Assembly (NCBI RefSeq): GCF_005960665.1
Contig: NZ_CP040676.1
Location: 382,501-446,500 of the forward strand
Source of the DNA: Exiguobacterium mexicanum
GTDB taxonomy: Bacteria > Bacillota > Bacilli > Exiguobacteriales > Exiguobacteriaceae
Direction of reading: 5' to 3'
DNA length: 64,000 nucleotides
Below the pieces are notes generated by a model that saw nothing but the letters and a program-made list of their open reading frames with translations, made no database searches and was not told the DNA's origin. Made by a program: the position numbers and the translations under genes. Of this stretch, positions 11,477-61,092 are shown piece after piece (the first letter of the stretch is position 1; each line of letters begins with the position of its first letter).

Positions 11477-11679
11477 TCACAAGTCCTTGTGAAGCTTCTC
11501 TTCGATCAGATATAACGCTAACGTGAGGGCATCAATCCGTCGTTTCGCGAGGGTCACCTGCGATTTGTATCGCTCAGGGAGTCTTTCGCCTCGAGTGTCC
11601 TCACCGTCTCGTTCAGTTTTTGGAGAATCGAATCGATTTGCCGCTTCGCCTCCGTCAGTTCCGTCATTGAATAATTCAT
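11477..11679 (-). pseudogene. Small helical protein, frameshifted
   Basis: From ATG 11679 (AGGAGGAG upstream) the frame reads MNYSMTELTEAKRQ and so on through a helical stretch, but stops early near 11,555. The neighbouring frame then continues with ERLPERYKSQVTLAKRRIDA to a stop at 11477-11479. One missing base, most simply a G in the GCGAAAG run at about 11,592, would join them into a 67-residue amphipathic helical protein. No named family is recognised with confidence. It is either a fresh pseudogene or a sequence error. Confidence 0.6.
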
Positions 11680-52145: not shown

Positions 52146-53096
52146 ATGGAAGAGCAAAAGAAGCGAGTAAAAAAACGTCGGAAAAAGAGTTCTCCAGCTA
52201 AACGGATTGCAAAAATTGCGGGACTCGTCGTAGGGTTGTTCTTGCTCATCGGAGTCGGTGCAGCTGTCTATCTATATAATCAAGTCGATTCGACCGTCGA
52301 GCGGTTGAACGAGTCGACGGGCCTCAGCCCTGAGCGCATGCAACCAGAAACTATCGAAAACAAGAAGCCAATCTCGGTCCTTCTCCTCGGCGTCGACCGT
52401 CGTGCCGACGAGCAGGGTCGCAGTGACTCGATTATCGTCATGACGCTCAACCCGAACACGGATCAAAGCGCGATGCTCAGCATCCCGCGTGACACGAAGA
52501 CGGAGATTGTCGGCAAAGAGACATCTGATAAGATTAACCACGCTTATGCATTCGGTGGGGCCGAGATGGCACTCGACACGGTCGAGAACTTACTCGACAT
52601 CCCAATCGATTACGTGGCAGAAGTCGACATGAAAGGCTTCCAAGACACGGTCGATCTCCTCGGCGGCGTCAACGTGACGAACAACTTGGCGTTCACGTCA
52701 GGTGAGCACACGTTCGAACCGGGCGCACTCACGCTCAACGGGTCAGAGGCGCTCGCTTACACGCGCATGCGCTATGACGATCCGAGCGGGGACTTCGGTC
52801 GCCAAGAGCGCCAACGTGACGTCATCACGGCGCTCGTCAACAAAGGCAAAGACGACTTCTCAATCTCGAAGTTCAACAACATGCTCGACGTGCTCGGCAA
52901 CAACGCCAAGACGAACATGACGTTCAAAGACATCCGGACGCTCTCGAGCGACTATATGGCTGCTTTCAAAAACCAGGACGTCCTTCGCCTCGAAGGAGCG
53001 GGCGGGAAAGAAAGCGACGGCATCTATTACTGGAACCCGGATGCTGCTTCACTTGAAGACGTGAAGTCGTATCTCGGACAATTGATGGAACAATGA
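52146..53096 (+). CDS. LytR-CpsA-Psr (LCP) family protein, first copy
   Basis: A 316-residue membrane-anchored LCP protein. Basic cytoplasmic start (KKRVKKRRKKSS), one membrane segment (about 22-43), then the LCP domain with the phosphotransfer signatures LLLGVDRR, SDSIIVMTLNP, SIPRDTKTEI, KINHAYAFGG, MRYDDPSGDFGRQERQR. LCP proteins attach teichoic acid or capsule polymers to peptidoglycan. It is followed by a YihY gene and a second LCP gene. An ACGAAAGGTG site precedes ATG 52146. Confidence 0.94.
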   Translation: MEEQKKRVKKRRKKSSPAKRIAKIAGLVVGLFLLIGVGAAVYLYNQVDSTVERLNESTGLSPERMQPETIENKKPISVLLLGVDRRADEQGRSDSIIVMTLNPNTDQSAMLSIPRDTKTEIVGKETSDKINHAYAFGGAEMALDTVENLLDIPIDYVAEVDMKGFQDTVDLLGGVNVTNNLAFTSGEHTFEPGALTLNGSEALAYTRMRYDDPSGDFGRQERQRDVITALVNKGKDDFSISKFNNMLDVLGNNAKTNMTFKDIRTLSSDYMAAFKNQDVLRLEGAGGKESDGIYYWNPDAASLEDVKSYLGQLMEQ

Positions 53097-53099
53097 CGC

Positions 53100-53135
53100 A
53101 TCGCCTCATCCGACACGGATGGGGCGGTTTGTTTT
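53100..53135 (+). terminator. Intrinsic terminator after first LCP gene
   Basis: CGCCTCATCC-GACAC-GGATGGGGCG followed by a T-rich stretch. It overlaps a possible longer reading of the next gene but not its chosen start. Confidence 0.6.
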
Positions 53136-53167
53136 ATGCGATAATGAGAAGAAAAGGAGTGACCCGT

Positions 53168-54013
53168 GTGCTCGACCGCCTGATCCGCCTCGTCATCGAC
53201 GTCCGCCATCGGTTCAAGGACCACCATATCAACGACTATAGCGCGACGCTCGCGTTCTTTTGGTTTCTCGCCATCTTCCCGACGTTCGTCCTCTTGTTCG
53301 CGGTCATGGCGCGGCTCGGCATCGACGACGCCTTGTTGATCGAACAGATTGAAATCTTGATTCCGGGCTCGAGCGTGCGCGAGATGCTGTCAATCGTCTA
53401 TGACGTCAGCGGCAACATCAACGCCGGTCTCGTCTCGATCGGGGCCATCATCGCCGTCTGGTCGGCGTCGAACGGGACGGCTCGCCTCGTCAAGCTGACC
53501 GTGTTCGCCTATGGGGAGACGGAGGCCCGTAGTTACGTCGTCCGTCGCTTGATCGGGCTGCTCACGCTCATTGCCTTCAGCCTCGGCGCTGTCATCTTGA
53601 TCGTGTTCCATATTTTCGGACGCGAGTTAGTCGAGCTCATGTACACATGGTTCCCCTGGCTCGAGGACTTCGACCGGTTGGCGACGCTCACGCGCTACAC
53701 GGTGTCGACCGTCATCCTCATCTTCGCATTCTCGCTCTTCTACAAGATCGCCCCGCAGCAATACGTCAAGTTCACCGAGACGCTCCCGGGTGCCGTCTTC
53801 GCCGTCATCTCGTGGCAGCTGTTGTCGACGGGCTATAGCGTCTACGTCGATCAATTCTCGATGTTCGGTGATACGTACGGGACGATCGGCGTCGTCATCC
53901 TATTGCAGATTTGGCTCTATTTGACGGCGGCGACGATGTTACTCGGGGCTGAAATCAATGCGGCCTGGCCGAACCACATGCGTCGTACACGGTACAAGAT
54001 GCATTTTCCATGA
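53168..54013 (+). CDS. YihY/BrkB-family membrane protein
   Basis: A 281-residue protein with about six membrane segments from GTG 53168 (AAAGGAGTG eight bases upstream), matching YihY/virulence factor BrkB family: DYSATLAFFWFLAIFPTFVLLF start, TGYSVYVDQF and YGTIGVVILLQIWLY near the end. These are sometimes misnamed RNase BN; the true function is not settled, probably a transporter or envelope-related protein. It sits between two LCP genes. Confidence 0.9.
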   Translation: MLDRLIRLVIDVRHRFKDHHINDYSATLAFFWFLAIFPTFVLLFAVMARLGIDDALLIEQIEILIPGSSVREMLSIVYDVSGNINAGLVSIGAIIAVWSASNGTARLVKLTVFAYGETEARSYVVRRLIGLLTLIAFSLGAVILIVFHIFGRELVELMYTWFPWLEDFDRLATLTRYTVSTVILIFAFSLFYKIAPQQYVKFTETLPGAVFAVISWQLLSTGYSVYVDQFSMFGDTYGTIGVVILLQIWLYLTAATMLLGAEINAAWPNHMRRTRYKMHFP

Positions 54014-54116: not shown

Positions 54117-55040
54117 ATGGCGAGACATAAGAAGAAATCAAGATGGAAAAAGGTGTTGGCGATCACGCTCGGCGTCATGACAATCTTTCTCGTTGCTGGG
54201 GGCTTGTTCGTCTGGTCGATGTACCGCGACGTCAACGAGACGGTGACGAAAGTGAATGACAATCTCGACATCAGTCAGGAACGGAAGCAGGTCGAGACGA
54301 TCGAGCAGAAAGAGTCGATTTCGGTGCTGTTGCTCGGGATTGACCGGCGTGACGGCGAGCAGGGGCGGAGTGACTCGATTATCGTCATGACGCTCAACCC
54401 GACGACGGATGAAGGGGCAATGCTCAGCATCCCGCGCGATACGAAGACGGAGATCGTCGGGAAAGGCACGAACGATAAAATCAACCATGCCTACGCGTTC
54501 GGTGGAGCAGAGATGGCGATGGACACGGTCGAAGGGTTGCTCGACATCCCGATCGATTACGTCGTCGAGGCGGATATGGAGGCGTTCACCGAGGTCGTCG
54601 ACGCGCTCGGCGGCATCACGGTGACGAACAACTTCGCGTTCTCGTCGGACGGCTACAACTATCCCGTCGGTCAGGTCGATTTGAATGGCGCATCGGCATT
54701 GTCGTACGCTCGGATGCGTTATGACGACCCGAACGGTGACTTCGGTCGCCAAGAGCGGCAACGTGCCGTCGTTGCGGCCATCGTCGAGAAGGGACGTTCC
54801 GACTTCTCGATCGACAAAGTGACGAAGCTATTGGACGTCGCCGGCAACCGGGCCAAGACGAACATCGAGTTCAATGAGCTTGTGACGCTGTCGACGGACT
54901 ATATGAAGGCGTTCCGCAACGCCAGTACGCTCCGCATCGAAGGGTCAGGCGGATTGGAGGCGGACGGGATCTATTACTGGAACCCGGATTCGGCCTCGCT
55001 CGCCGACGTCCAAGCCGAGCTACAGCGCTTGATGAACTGA
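54117..55040 (+). CDS. LytR-CpsA-Psr (LCP) family protein, second copy
   Basis: A 307-residue LCP protein from ATG 54117 (AAGCAGGTG upstream; the longer frame upstream is not used). Basic start, membrane segment (about 14-34), and the same domain motifs as the first copy (LLLGIDRR, SDSIIVMTLNP, SIPRDTKTEI, RYDDPNGDFGRQERQR). The two copies are much alike across the catalytic domain, so they are recent or constrained duplicates, likely with overlapping substrates. Confidence 0.94.
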   Translation: MARHKKKSRWKKVLAITLGVMTIFLVAGGLFVWSMYRDVNETVTKVNDNLDISQERKQVETIEQKESISVLLLGIDRRDGEQGRSDSIIVMTLNPTTDEGAMLSIPRDTKTEIVGKGTNDKINHAYAFGGAEMAMDTVEGLLDIPIDYVVEADMEAFTEVVDALGGITVTNNFAFSSDGYNYPVGQVDLNGASALSYARMRYDDPNGDFGRQERQRAVVAAIVEKGRSDFSIDKVTKLLDVAGNRAKTNIEFNELVTLSTDYMKAFRNASTLRIEGSGGLEADGIYYWNPDSASLADVQAELQRLMN

Positions 55041-55068
55041 GTCGTTCCTGACGGGACGGCTTTTTTTG
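55040..55068 (+). terminator. Intrinsic terminator after second LCP gene
   Basis: AGTCGTTCC-TGAC-GGGACGGCT followed by TTTTTTT. Confidence 0.75.
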
Positions 55069-55124
55069 CGTTTGAAAATCATGGTTCGGTGGGACTGATT
55101 AAGAGACACTTGAGGAGGGATTGC

Positions 55125-56333
55125 ATGAATGTTGAGACGATTGAACCGATGATCAACCGATTAGAGGATGACCATACCATTGAAGAGTGGCGGGAACTGT
55201 TCGCCAAGTGGGACAACCACGCCTGGCACGACGGGAACGGGGTGACCGAGAAGACGAGCGTCCTATTGATGGATGCGAACGCCGTCACGAACGACGGCAG
55301 CCCCGACTTGGACGCACTCCATGAGCTGTTGAAGGACCACGTCCAGGCGTCGATCAGCGACTTGTATCTCGTGTCGCTCTTCCCGTACAAGGAGAAGCCG
55401 ACCGATACGGCCGTCAATCCGCGCATCCGGTTATATGAGGACCTCGGGCGCTTCAAACATGAGTTCGACCTTATGTACGATATGGACCCGGACGTCTATA
55501 ACGAGATGCAGCTCGATCTCTTGGACGAGACGGACGCCTTCATCGAGCGGCTCGCTCAAGGTGCGACGAAGCTGCGCGTCCACGTCCAGTCGTTCCGTGG
55601 CATGCCCGAGAAACGGATTCGACTCATCCTCGAGCTGTGGCACGCCGTGCTCCATCACTATAAGCCGCACGGGCAGCTCATTCTCGCCTATGAAGGGGAC
55701 CCGTCCTTGACTCCGGAATACTTCGCCGTCGCCGATGCCGTCTGTCACTTTGACCTCGCGTCGCATACGTTGCTGGCATTCGCGCAAGGGGATGCGAAGA
55801 AGTTGTCCGACTGGGCGCAGCGGATCGAGGCACCGGGGGACGGGAAGACGTACTTCAACTTCTTGTCGAGCCGGGAGCGGGACCCGTTCGAGAAGAATCT
55901 GATTGAGCCGAGCGTCGAACAGATTCTTGCGGCCCACAGTATCCTGTTCTCGCTGCAAGGGATCCCGGCCATCGACTACCGGACGCTCCTAGGCGTTGAA
56001 ACACCGGTCGAGCACGATGAGCTCATTCAAGACCTGAAGACCAATCCGTATCGCCTGCAGGTGTTCTCAGGAATTCTGAGTCAACTGAACGTCAAACGGA
56101 CGCATGCGGCGTTTTCGCCGTACGCTGAGCAGCGCATCGATATGTCCGATAAACGCGTCTTCACGGTCGAGCGGAAGGGTGGAGGAGAGACGCTCATGCT
56201 GTATACGAACGTCAGCAATGAGCCGGTCACCGTGCGAGTGAGCGGGACGAATTTGTTCACGGGTGAACCGGTCGAGACGATTGAACTGGACGCCTATGGA
56301 TTTGCATGGATTGATGAACATGAACCTTCTTGA
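55125..56333 (+). CDS. GH13-like (sucrose-phosphorylase-type) protein lacking catalytic residues
   Basis: A 402-residue protein from ATG 55125 (GAGGAGGG upstream). The layout follows the sucrose/glucosylglycerate phosphorylase group of GH13 (subfamily 18): FPYKEKPTDTAVNPR (86-100), LILAYEGDPS (185-194), SILFSLQGIPAIDYRTLLG (272-290), and a C-terminal beta domain with DLFTGE-like NLFTGEP (376-382). Family enzymes are 480-560 residues long, so about 100 are missing. Region I, normally DLVINH, is DMDPDV; region II, normally RLDAF with the nucleophile Asp, is RVHVQSF; region III lacks the acid/base Glu of the PEIHEH pattern; region IV lacks HD. All three catalytic acids appear absent. It is probably a pseudoenzyme, possibly a carbohydrate-binding or regulatory protein. 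Confidence 0.65.
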   Translation: MNVETIEPMINRLEDDHTIEEWRELFAKWDNHAWHDGNGVTEKTSVLLMDANAVTNDGSPDLDALHELLKDHVQASISDLYLVSLFPYKEKPTDTAVNPRIRLYEDLGRFKHEFDLMYDMDPDVYNEMQLDLLDETDAFIERLAQGATKLRVHVQSFRGMPEKRIRLILELWHAVLHHYKPHGQLILAYEGDPSLTPEYFAVADAVCHFDLASHTLLAFAQGDAKKLSDWAQRIEAPGDGKTYFNFLSSRERDPFEKNLIEPSVEQILAAHSILFSLQGIPAIDYRTLLGVETPVEHDELIQDLKTNPYRLQVFSGILSQLNVKRTHAAFSPYAEQRIDMSDKRVFTVERKGGGETLMLYTNVSNEPVTVRVSGTNLFTGEPVETIELDAYGFAWIDEHEPS

Positions 56334-56350
56334 TGTAAAAAGAGGACGCG

Positions 56351-56402
56351 ATAAAACGGCTGACACGAGAACCTTTAAGGTTCTTCGGTCAGCCGTTTTT
56401 TA
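56351..56402. terminator. Bidirectional intrinsic terminator
   Basis: Long hairpin AAAACGGCTGAC / GTCAGCCGTTTT with T-run between the GH13-like gene and galE. Confidence 0.85.
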
Positions 56403-57416
56403 TGCCCGATATCCGTTCGGGTTGCTCGATTGCCAGTTCCAGGCGTCACGGCACATGGCACGGACGTCATGTTTTGCTTCCCAACCGAGCACTTGTTTCG
56501 ATTTCGATGGGTCGGCGAAGCAGATGGCGATATCACCTGGGCGCCGCGGTGTCACTTTGTAAGGGACAGGTTTGCCACTCTCGGCCTCGAACGCTTGGAC
56601 AAGGTCGAGCACGCTATAACCTGTGCCGGTTCCGAGGTTGAACGCTTCGGCACCAGTATGGTCCATGACGTAGTCGAGCGCCTTCAAGTGACCCTCGGCC
56701 AAGTCGACGACGTGAATATAGTCGCGGACACCAGTTCCGTCAGGTGTATCGTAGTCGTCACCGAATACGCTCAACTCGTTCAAGCGACCGACAGCGACTT
56801 GCGTGATGTACGGCATCAAGTTGTTCGGGATATCGAACGGATCTTCACCGATTTGACCCGATTCATGGGCACCGATTGGGTTGAAGTAACGTAAGAGAGC
56901 GATGCTCCACGATGGATCAGCGACAGCAAGGTCGCGCATGATGTCTTCGATCATCAGTTTCGTCCGGCCGTATGGGTTCGTCGCGCTGAGCGGGAATGAT
57001 TCGTCAATCGGTGTCCGTTCTGGCATGCCGTATACGGTCGCCGATGAGCTGAAGACGATCCGTTTCACGTCGAACGCATTCATGACTTCAAGTAACACGG
57101 TCGTGCCGACGACGTTGTTCTCGTAATAGCGGAGTGGCTCCGATACGGATTCACCGACGGCCTTCAGTCCGGCGAAGTGGATGACAGCGTCAATTGTATG
57201 TGTCAAAAAGATTTGTTCGAGTAACTCGCGATCAAGGATATCGCCGAGGTAAAAGGTGACTGATTTTCCGGTCATTTCTTCAACACGTTCGAGTGCTTCA
57301 CGACGACTGTTTGATAAGTTGTCGAGGACGATAACGTCCCGTCCTTCCTCAAGTAATTGTAACACGGTATGGGTACCGATATAACCAGCACCACCTGTGA
57401 CTAAAATGGTGTTCAT
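56400..57416 (-). CDS. galE: UDP-glucose 4-epimerase
   Basis: A 338-residue extended SDR from ATG 57416 (AAGGAG upstream). [11 protein letters not shown] (NAD loop, 7-17), catalytic Ser in FSSSATVYG and the Tyr/Lys pair in [11 protein letters not shown], then [12 protein letters not shown] and [16 protein letters not shown]. It converts UDP-glucose and UDP-galactose (perhaps also the GlcNAc forms). Placed at the start of the surface polymer region, it probably supplies UDP-galactose for the exopolysaccharide made by the next genes. Confidence 0.95.
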
Positions 57417-57449: not shown

Positions 57450-58682
57450 TTATTTTTCTGTTAAGCGTACGCGGGTCTGTCCGTTTGTACCTTCGAATAA
57501 TCGAAGTGAATATGTTTCACTCTCGTAAACCACGGCATCGTCCGTTTCTAAAACAGGTTCTCCGAGTGAACTGAACGCGTCGCGTGTCGTTTGCGTGTTT
57601 GTCCAATCGATGGCGTGTACTTTGTCTTGTTGAATGACGAAGAAACCACCGTTATAGAACGCATAGGCGTTCAACGCATCTGTCTCCCGACCGTAAGGCG
57701 CACCGATCGTCTCCGTGAGTGCTGCTTCGTTCATAGCGAAGAAATCCGGAATCGCTTCGCCGAGCCAGTCGTTGTCCAAGTTCATGTTGACCCAATCGAG
57801 TAGGGCGCTATTCGTCAACTCTCGCGTCGGCCATTCTTTCGTGACGGCGTCGAGCGGGGCCCATGCGGTTGTCCCGTCTAAATCAACTTCGACATGATTA
57901 TCTTCTTCCTTCAAAACTTCGTAGCGGTCGCCGATATCTCCTATATAGGTAACCGTCGTGCCGTTTGGTTCCGAGACGAGATTGACGTTCTTTGAAGCAA
58001 GCCAGACGTAATTCGTCTCCGGCTCTTGGACGACCGGTTCAGGATCTGGTTTTGGTGTTTCCTCAACGACGGTGGCTTCTTGTTTTGGTTCCAATAAGTC
58101 CATTGCATATGGATACCCGATATAGCCGCCTCCCATGAGTAAAGCGAGAAAGAAAAGCACACCAATCCATTTGCCCGACTTTCGGCGTGGTCGTGCCGGT
58201 TCGATCGTGCGTTGGTACTTGGCCCGTTCAGCCCTTGAAGGGACTGGCACTTCCGGTGTATAACGTGGCTTTAAAACAGTTGGTTTTTCTTCTGTTTTTA
58301 GAGCATCAACTGTTGTTGATTTAGGCACTGTTACTGTCGACTTGTCGACTACCGGAGTATCTTTGACCGTTGTCTTGTCAACCGGTGCCGATTGTGGAAC
58401 GGTCGCTTCTTTGTTAAACACGGTGTCATGCATCTCAAGTAAAGACACATAGTATGGAAGAAACGTGGCATCTTTCTTCCCGTCTTTAATCCAGGCGGCG
58501 AAGTCAGTAGCCGATTTTACTTCTTTTGGTAGTGCATTGTTTACCGAACCTGTTAGTTCTTCGAAGGACATAGTTAACGATTTTCCGTCCCCTAAATTTT
58601 GTTTAATGGTATCTTGCAGTTTTGTACGTGTTGCCGCATTCGTGTCTGCGTACAACTGGAGTAGGCGCTCACTAACGTGCAC
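57450..58682 (-). CDS. Single-pass membrane protein with SH3-like outer domain
   Basis: A 410-residue protein from GTG 58682 (AAAGGAGGAG upstream). Residues 1-90 form a charged cytoplasmic helical domain, 91-170 a Thr/Val/Lys/Pro-rich linker with repeated TVxK units, 172-190 one membrane segment, 228-282 an SH3-like module (NYVWLASKNVNLVSEPNGT, WAPLDAV) and 283-410 an unrecognised domain. SH3b modules bind peptidoglycan or peptides, so it may link cytoplasmic events to the wall. It is transcribed away from the EPS genes and next to galE. I do not recognise a family for the whole protein. Confidence 0.7.
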   Translation of the reverse strand: MHVSERLLQLYADTNAATRTKLQDTIKQNLGDGKSLTMSFEELTGSVNNALPKEVKSATDFAAWIKDGKKDATFLPYYVSLLEMHDTVFNKEATVPQSAPVDKTTVKDTPVVDKSTVTVPKSTTVDALKTEEKPTVLKPRYTPEVPVPSRAERAKYQRTIEPARPRRKSGKWIGVLFFLALLMGGGYIGYPYAMDLLEPKQEATVVEETPKPDPEPVVQEPETNYVWLASKNVNLVSEPNGTTVTYIGDIGDRYEVLKEEDNHVEVDLDGTTAWAPLDAVTKEWPTRELTNSALLDWVNMNLDNDWLGEAIPDFFAMNEAALTETIGAPYGRETDALNAYAFYNGGFFVIQQDKVHAIDWTNTQTTRDAFSSLGEPVLETDDAVVYESETYSLRLFEGTNGQTRVRLTEK

Positions 58683-60324: not shown

Positions 60325-61092
60325 ATGATTGATATCCATTGTCACTTATTACCGGCCGTCGATGACGGTCCGGAAACAGTCGAACAAGCGGTAGAAATGG
60401 CGAAGCGCGCAGTAAGTGAAGGGGTGACTGCAATCGTGGTCACCCCCCACGCGTTTCAACCGCAGTTTGACACGAGCGAACTAGATGTACCAAATGCTGT
60501 GACAAGACTTCAAAATGTACTTCGACAAGAAAACATTAATCTCGATTTGTATTCGGGCCAAGAGATTCGAATCTTCGGTGACCTGGTTGAATCGTTATCA
60601 CAAGGGGAAGCGTTATCGCTTGCCGGATCTCGGTATGTGCTCGTCGAGTTTCCGAGTGACTCGGTACCGGCTTATGCGGAACAGCTCTTCTTTGGGCTTC
60701 AAACAGAAGGATACACACCAATTATTGCGCATCCTGAGCGAAATAAAGAATTTGCGACGAACCCGAAACGACTAATGGACTTTGTATCATCGGGGGCATT
60801 GTCACAAATTACAACGAGCAGCTTGACCGGAGCATTCGGAAATAACGTCAAAGACCTCGCATTCGCTTTCCTACGTAACGGCTTGAGCCATTTGATCGCA
60901 TCAGATGCGCATAGTACGGGGCGACGAACGTTTTATTGGACGGAAGTCGAGAAGGTCGTGCGGGATGAACTCGGTGCAGACAAATGGGGAAATTATGTCA
61001 TTAACGCAGAAGCAGTCATCAAGGATGATTTTGTATTCATCGACCCGCCGACATTACCGACTAAAAACTGGCGAGGAAAATGGAAAAAATAA
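60325..61092 (+). CDS. Tyrosine phosphatase, PHP type (CapC/YwqE-like)
   Basis: A 255-residue manganese-dependent PHP phosphatase. Metal ligands are visible in MIDIHCHLLPAVDDG (His5, His7), VTPHAF, IIAHPERN and IASDAHS. It dephosphorylates the BY-kinase Tyr cluster. AAGGAGAG before ATG 60325, 15 bases after the kinase gene. Transcription probably ends about 150 bases downstream, where a hairpin precedes galU. Confidence 0.93.
   Translation: MIDIHCHLLPAVDDGPETVEQAVEMAKRAVSEGVTAIVVTPHAFQPQFDTSELDVPNAVTRLQNVLRQENINLDLYSGQEIRIFGDLVESLSQGEALSLAGSRYVLVEFPSDSVPAYAEQLFFGLQTEGYTPIIAHPERNKEFATNPKRLMDFVSSGALSQITTSSLTGAFGNNVKDLAFAFLRNGLSHLIASDAHSTGRRTFYWTEVEKVVRDELGADKWGNYVINAEAVIKDDFVFIDPPTLPTKNWRGKWKK

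Follow-up and report, generated by a model that had tools for sequence, protein, structure and literature searches.

The window, the whole 64,000-nucleotide stretch of Exiguobacterium mexicanum DNA that was analysed (contig NZ_CP040676.1), comes from a genome of 2.69 Mb and carries at positions 55125–56333, on the forward strand, an open reading frame with an ATG start and a TGA stop that stays open through 402 codons with no frameshift. A ribosome-binding site, GAGGAGGG, can be read from the sequence at about 55112–55119 (+), and a like site lies 5′ of the start in 19/19 orthologs, the same motif having served as the script's criterion for start choice. In the ortholog on L011 the frame is open for 396 codons, and the in-frame stop reported once lies beyond the gene end. 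The good ribosome site and unbroken frame named in the original prediction, which was made from the sequence of this window, are as described there. The encoded protein appears to derive from glycoside hydrolase subfamily GH13_18, and it lacks the catalytic residues of GH13 and also both domain B and loop A.

The gene occupies a fixed position among genes for surface polymers. A LytR-CpsA-Psr gene, LCP2 (54117–55040, +), lies directly upstream in all 19 genomes compared (the window and 18 relatives), preceded in all 19 by a YihY/BrkB membrane protein gene (53093–54013, +), and a CpsB/CapC-type gene, cpsB (60325–61092, +), lies downstream in 19/19 and directly adjacent in four. The order YihY–LCP2–this gene, with cpsB downstream, is thus constant across the set, bearing out the earlier statement that the gene adjoins cell-wall polymer genes. 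Pfam searches of the neighbours identified LytR-CpsA-Psr (two), BrkB/YihY, NAD-dependent epimerase, Wzz, ParA-like ATPase, CpsB/CapC and nucleotidyltransferase domains; by family we take genes of this neighbourhood to be galE, galU and a BY-kinase gene, and the CpsB/CapC-type product to be a tyrosine phosphatase. The cpsB start follows the stop codon of our gene by 6 bases in G003, G009 and G011 and by 21 bases in G002, and because of this spacing the two genes probably form one transcript in these four genomes.

Upstream, the gene seems to be under separate control. An intrinsic-terminator-like hairpin with a T run (55039–55071, +) follows LCP2, and a simple stem test found a hairpin with a T run in 17 of the 19 orthologous upstream regions; the gene is therefore not simply co-transcribed with LCP2. 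Thirty bases 5′ of the ATG stands a promoter-like GTTT-N17-GGGA (55070–55094, +), possibly of SigB type, which recurs in 17/19 upstream regions and is missing in G016 and G007. No match to a sigma-70-type promoter was found in 54900–56500. A pattern derived from the 55070–55094 site itself, and so not independent of it, gave one match, and another genome pattern, which requires an A that is absent from the site, gave one match versus three in the control. The same genome carries GTTT-N15-GGGA 5′ of an rsbV-type gene, identified by eye and by its position before a SigB match. The gene is probably transcribed from a promoter of its own, perhaps of SigB type; judged by the usual SigB consensus and spacing, SigB control is no more than a lead.

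Sequence searches placed the protein in no annotated known family. NCBIfam returned no family at E up to 10, and Pfam, at the same limit, returned four matches, all under their cut-offs, with no family assigned. Three of the four are C-terminal or unknown-function domains known from glycosidases, and PF00128 (Alpha-amylase) is not among them at E up to 10, a search in which HMMER filters can lose weak matches. Searching the PDB with the single protein produced noise only; searching it with a profile produced weak matches, the best to a glucosylglycerol phosphorylase (E 0.0076) and another to a chain named sucrose phosphorylase (E 0.039). Our literature searches did not find a description of this Exiguobacterium protein.

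Structure prediction was more informative. AlphaFold2 modelled the 402-residue protein with a pLDDT of 80.0 and a pTM of 0.82 from the 19 orthologs alone, and with 87.6 and 0.89 when 11 intact relatives were added; in the better model residues 88–100 are the sole stretch of at least three residues below pLDDT 50. The predicted model consists of a (β/α)8 barrel followed by a C-terminal β domain, the GH13 layout. Its top VIA-align match is the α-amylase 1jf5 (Z 32.2, 343 residues, 2.9 Å), and further matches include sucrose 6F-phosphate phosphorylase 6s9v (Z 29.2), the ectodomain of human CD98hc, 7df1 (Z 28.3, 3.4 Å, with 336 of 400 residues aligned), and 7znp (Z 27.7), listed under sucrose phosphorylase / sucrose 6F-phosphate phosphorylase. 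A GH13 fold along the full length of the protein, as originally proposed, is therefore supported by the models. The highest 19-residue hydropathy is 1.18, an N-terminal hydrophobic stretch is absent, and a hydropathy scan revealed no apparent membrane segment or signal peptide, from which we infer a cytosolic location.

We counted lost residues in a MAFFT alignment of the 19 orthologs with the 11 intact relatives; ten of these relatives belong to other genera and one, that of G003, to Exiguobacterium, and all 11 keep the catalytic-region residues at the 16 counted positions. The window protein reads RVHVQ in region II, LAYEGD in region III and SSRERD in region IV and also carries ILFSLQGIPAIDY, precisely the readings first given. 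The GH13 triad of Asp (β4), Glu (β5) and Asp (β7) is replaced in 19/19 by His153, Ala188 (ungapped reading) and Glu251. His153 (codon 153, 55581–55583, +) takes the position of the nucleophile and E251 that of the region IV transition-state Asp. The acid/base Glu of region III is gapped by MAFFT; the ungapped reading puts Ala there in all 19 orthologs, and codons 188–190 (55686–55694, +) then place an acid (16 Glu, 3 Asp) at 190, two residues past the acid/base position. The claim that all catalytic acids are missing accordingly holds for the GH13 set, lost in 19/19, and is too strong for acids as such, given that E251 occupies one of the three positions and E/D190 lies close to another. The region I Asn-His is absent in 19/19, as had been claimed, along with the RINR Arg and the TETN motif, and in the DDGF motif Asp and Phe are replaced throughout. 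The region II Arg and region V Gln are retained in all 19, whereas only 4 orthologs keep the His of region IV, the other 15 having different residues there.

Alignment indicates that the losses extend to domain B and loop A, on which the original prediction was silent. In total, 151 residues of the G003 protein are missing from all 19 orthologs: 62 in or beside domain B, 52 in or beside loop A, 17 around RINR and the remainder in smaller pieces. Glucosylglycerate phosphorylase (GGaP) has a conserved Glu in loop A, according to a review (PMC7178133); E256 aligns with it in 19/19, at a place where the surrounding loop is mostly deleted and the alignment is unsure. The same review describes the three catalytic residues as common to all GH13 enzymes and subsite −1 as conserved throughout GH13_18 (PMC7178133). 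With the catalytic set and subsite −1 lost, His in place of the carboxylate nucleophile and neither acceptor-side lid (domain B, loop A) left, the sequence makes it very unlikely that this protein performs the GH13 double-displacement reaction. E251 and E/D190, found close to where two members of the triad would stand, might be taken for migrated catalytic residues of a protein that is still a GH13_18 phosphorylase; we regard this as highly improbable with His for the nucleophile in 19/19 and with the region I His, the RINR Arg and the DDGF motif (subsite −1) missing together with both acceptor loops.

These losses are shared by a gene that is being kept. Orthologs occur in 19/19 Exiguobacterium genomes, all intact, which rules out a pseudogene or a frameshift. 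In the sister genus 0/19 genomes have an ortholog at E 1e-10; weaker matches appear there in 5 genomes at E 1e-3 and 4 at E 1e-5, and these fall in the C-terminal half of GH13 frames of 591–611 residues that by eye belong to another GH13 type. Scanning genome contigs with the single protein, a query that reaches close relatives only, gave seven loci, all in Exiguobacterium. Across the 19 orthologs 112/402 positions are invariant. Pairwise dN/dS (NG86) has a median of 0.17 and a maximum of 0.34 over the 64 of 171 pairs with dS of 0–1.5, dS being undefined or non-positive for 62 pairs. At dS<1 the median is 0.125 (31 pairs) versus 0.116 for YihY (54), 0.120 for LCP2 (49) and 0.049 for CpsB (8), and when the comparison is limited to the 4 pairs that can be used for every one of the four genes, this gene is highest, at 0.130 versus 0.083, 0.049 and 0.035. 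The gene is, on these estimates, under purifying selection, and the least constrained of the four on the 4 shared pairs. The original prediction had held that the gene is maintained and had proposed a search for orthologs with the same lost residues and low dN/dS; all 19 genomes share the losses, the ortholog set is unbroken and the ratio is low. Since the same losses are fixed in 19/19 under purifying selection, the alignments place them beyond chance. A decaying, functionless relic would fit the loss of all substrate loops and the long branch of the family (2.04), and is contradicted by the intact gene in 19/19, the purifying selection and the 112 invariant positions; we find it barely credible.

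We next consider the origin of the family. A profile of the 19 orthologs matches 34 of 398 genomes of the class at E 1e-5, and the matched frames outside the genus are nearly all 557–611 residues long. No short forms outside Exiguobacterium were recognised among these 34 genomes at that threshold; in G112 frames of 400 and 187 residues have coordinates that suggest pieces of one longer gene. TETN is found in 10/11 intact relatives and TESN in the eleventh, and (T/S)ETN is, according to the review, the mark of 2-O-glucosylglycerate phosphorylase (PMC7178133). The best-scoring intact relative is the G003 protein (205 bits with the profile, 33% identity). In a midpoint-rooted tree of 30 proteins the 19 orthologs group together (100/100), and the branch leading to them has a length of 2.04 changes per column. 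Because the intact relatives carry TETN or TESN, the G003 protein scores best and the 19 form one group, a GH13_18 protein of the GGaP type is the most likely parent, in preference to a sucrose phosphorylase proper. The sucrose-phosphorylase-type match originally proposed thus stands as GH13_18 ancestry, with the closest relatives being of the glucosylglycerate phosphorylase type instead. The long branch would fit a single burst of change with constraint thereafter.

For most genomes we could reject the idea that the protein is devoted to regulating a GGaP paralog, because a match covering over half the length of the GGaP-type protein of G003 occurs in 2/19 among the matches listed: G003 itself, at full length, and G004, with a 495-residue frame at 32% identity over 45–457 of 547. 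The full-length GGaP-type GH13_18 gene of G003 (L046 15112–16755, equal to L028 898–2538) and its inactive relative are about 6.5 kb apart; several long frames, of 673, 879, 410 and 533 residues, are found near the former.

In GH13 proteins the active site is on the face formed by the C-terminal ends of the barrel strands, and it is here that new residues have become fixed. Counting Asp and Glu as one class, an acid is present in 19/19 at 19 positions, and those at or within 5 residues after C-terminal strand ends are D50, D/E119, E/D190, D210, E251 and D284, accompanied by H153, H208 and R286. The longest invariant run, ERDPFEKNL (codons 251–259, 55875–55901, +; permutation p 0.0023), lies at the former region IV. 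An invariant DYRT (codons 284–287, 55974–55985, +) ends β8, where intact relatives (at least 10/11) carry Y, H and S at positions 284, 286 and 287, respectively. We then compared the 41 barrel positions that are conserved in intact relatives (at least 10/11) and invariant here, 28 on the active-site face and 13 elsewhere. The residue has switched at 21/28 on the active-site face versus 4/13 elsewhere, where 9/13 were kept (Fisher p 0.014, uncorrected among several tests, with the face assigned by hand from the secondary structure of the models). Of the switched positions, 14/21 on the active-site face are now polar versus 1/4 elsewhere. Positions 94–95 lie inside the lowest-confidence stretch of the model, 88–100, and are themselves unsurely aligned.

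Conservation by itself separates the two faces less clearly. Loops on the active-site face show no clear excess of conservation over those on the opposite face, whether by entropy (p 0.24) or by invariant columns (30/82 vs 8/31, p 0.37); compared with helices and both termini they differ in entropy (p 0.009) and not clearly in invariant columns (p 0.22). Over the whole barrel, invariance on the active-site face versus the rest is 41/106 vs 49/176 (p 0.066), a weak difference obtained, like the switch test, with wider hand-set face ranges than the loop entropy test. Conserved positions that turned variable number 36/64 on the active-site face versus 29/42 elsewhere (p 0.22). From the pattern of switches we infer that the barrel mouth was rebuilt rather than eroded. 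The key residues and loops behind the parent's reaction are gone and yet the protein is kept across the genus; since it is kept with new fixed residues in the old pocket, it probably has another, apparently undescribed, job.

One such job would be a different reaction on a surface-polymer precursor, perhaps metal- or phosphate-dependent, catalysed by a refitted set of acids at β1, β3, β5+2, β7 and β8 and His at β4 and β6. An acid or His is indeed fixed in 19/19 at or within 5 residues after the C-terminal ends of 7/8 strands (119 and 190 counted as acid class). We nevertheless judge this neofunctionalised enzyme rather improbable: no known catalytic motif was recognised by eye, and variation between Asp and Glu at 119 and 190 would be unusual for catalytic acids.

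The GH13 barrel might instead serve purely as a protein–protein module, as the CD98hc ectodomain does for its transporter subunit. Non-catalytic GH13 proteins are known in the heavy chains of animal amino-acid transporters, for which one report leaves a relic sugar-binding role open; in that report, CD98hc bound no carbohydrate detectably on two glycan arrays (PMC8537225). CD98hc, which has neither the triad nor domain B, persists as a partner protein (PMC8537225), and the Exiguobacterium protein shares both losses besides the structural match to 7df1 over 336 residues. W22, K28, W29, W34, H35 and D36, in an N-terminal extension (residues 22–36, 55188–55232), are invariant in the 19 and variable in intact relatives, making residues 22–36 a possible new interaction surface. 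W22, W29 and W34-H35-D36 would suit such a scaffold; the fixed polar switches, mostly on the old active-site face (14 vs 1 elsewhere), would not, an obligate partner is not evident and a membrane anchor is absent. We therefore think a pure scaffold unlikely, while treating it as a serious contender.

The reading we prefer, tentatively and at a little short of an even chance, is a cytosolic ligand-binding regulator of surface-polymer assembly that arose from a GGaP-type GH13_18 enzyme. The barrel mouth would have been rebuilt as a new, open, polar site lined by D50, D/E119, H153, E/D190, H208, D210, H214, E251-R252-D253, D284 and R286. The ligand of this site would be small and probably anionic, a sugar phosphate or a sugar nucleotide for example, and the ligand-bound protein would regulate a surface-polymer partner, most likely the neighbouring LCP/CpsB phosphotyrosine system. 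Support comes from the genus-wide presence, the uniform losses, the purifying selection, the polar switches on the old face and the fixed neighbourhood. Weighing against it, conservation of the active-site face is not clearly above that of the opposite face, and in 17/19 a terminator-like hairpin stands between LCP2 and this gene. Likewise, dN/dS is lower for CpsB, and this gene has the highest value on the 4 shared pairs. The sister genus also bears on this link: 18/19 of its genomes have a cpsB match without this gene (15 at 46–50% identity, 3 at 37–38%). A broader account, possible but on the doubtful side, is that a bacterial GH13_18 phosphorylase lineage lost all its GH13 machinery and lids and then had the barrel mouth remade once, with a new polar site that is now fixed. 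The result would be a core protein throughout the genus, whose task is to sense or process a precursor of surface polymers by way of a new type of active or regulatory site in the GH13 barrel.

Of known systems, the human CD98hc (4F2hc) ectodomain, of GH13_34, is the nearest parallel. Both combine a GH13 barrel, predicted in the Exiguobacterium protein, and a C domain with no domain B and no catalytic triad (PMC8537225 for CD98hc). CD98hc sits outside the cell on a membrane anchor and binds an amino-acid transporter, unlike the Exiguobacterium protein, which shows no membrane segment and appears to be of GH13_18 descent; because of that descent, the two sets of losses look independent. GGaP-type GH13_18 proteins, the closest intact sequence relatives found, have the same barrel and C-terminal β domain; unlike GGaP (EC 2.4.1.352), the Exiguobacterium protein is without the nucleophile, the acid/base Glu, region I, RINR, TETN, domain B and loop A. 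With the GH13_18 sucrose phosphorylase and sucrose 6F-phosphate phosphorylase it has the fold in common, the sequence match being weak and the catalytic set missing. As a compact, presumably soluble bacterial protein with 19 orthologs, a parent enzyme whose type can be recognised, a fixed neighbourhood and an apparent promoter of its own, it would offer a tractable case for asking what a GH13 barrel does without GH13 chemistry, and it may hint that surface-polymer assembly of the LCP/CpsB type has a cytosolic component not yet recognised.

Several features of the surrounding region vary among genomes. A first LCP gene (52146–53096 in the window) was not found at the locus in 5/18 relatives (G017, G002, G003, G009 and G011) and in G004 is present only as a fragment; the second LCP gene is present in 18/18. 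In the sister genus a YihY relative at 39–41% identity occurs in 9/9 genomes searched, with other surroundings in the 4 loci read. A 410-residue frame (57453–58682, reverse strand) with a likely membrane segment, SH3-like by eye and matching no Pfam or NCBIfam family, lies beside the locus in 14/18 relatives and is fast-evolving (43–94% identity). In G002 a 6-phosphogluconate dehydrogenase-like gene (near 11534–13284 of L045) is in two pieces, with about 850 bases and another frame between them, as if broken by an insertion.
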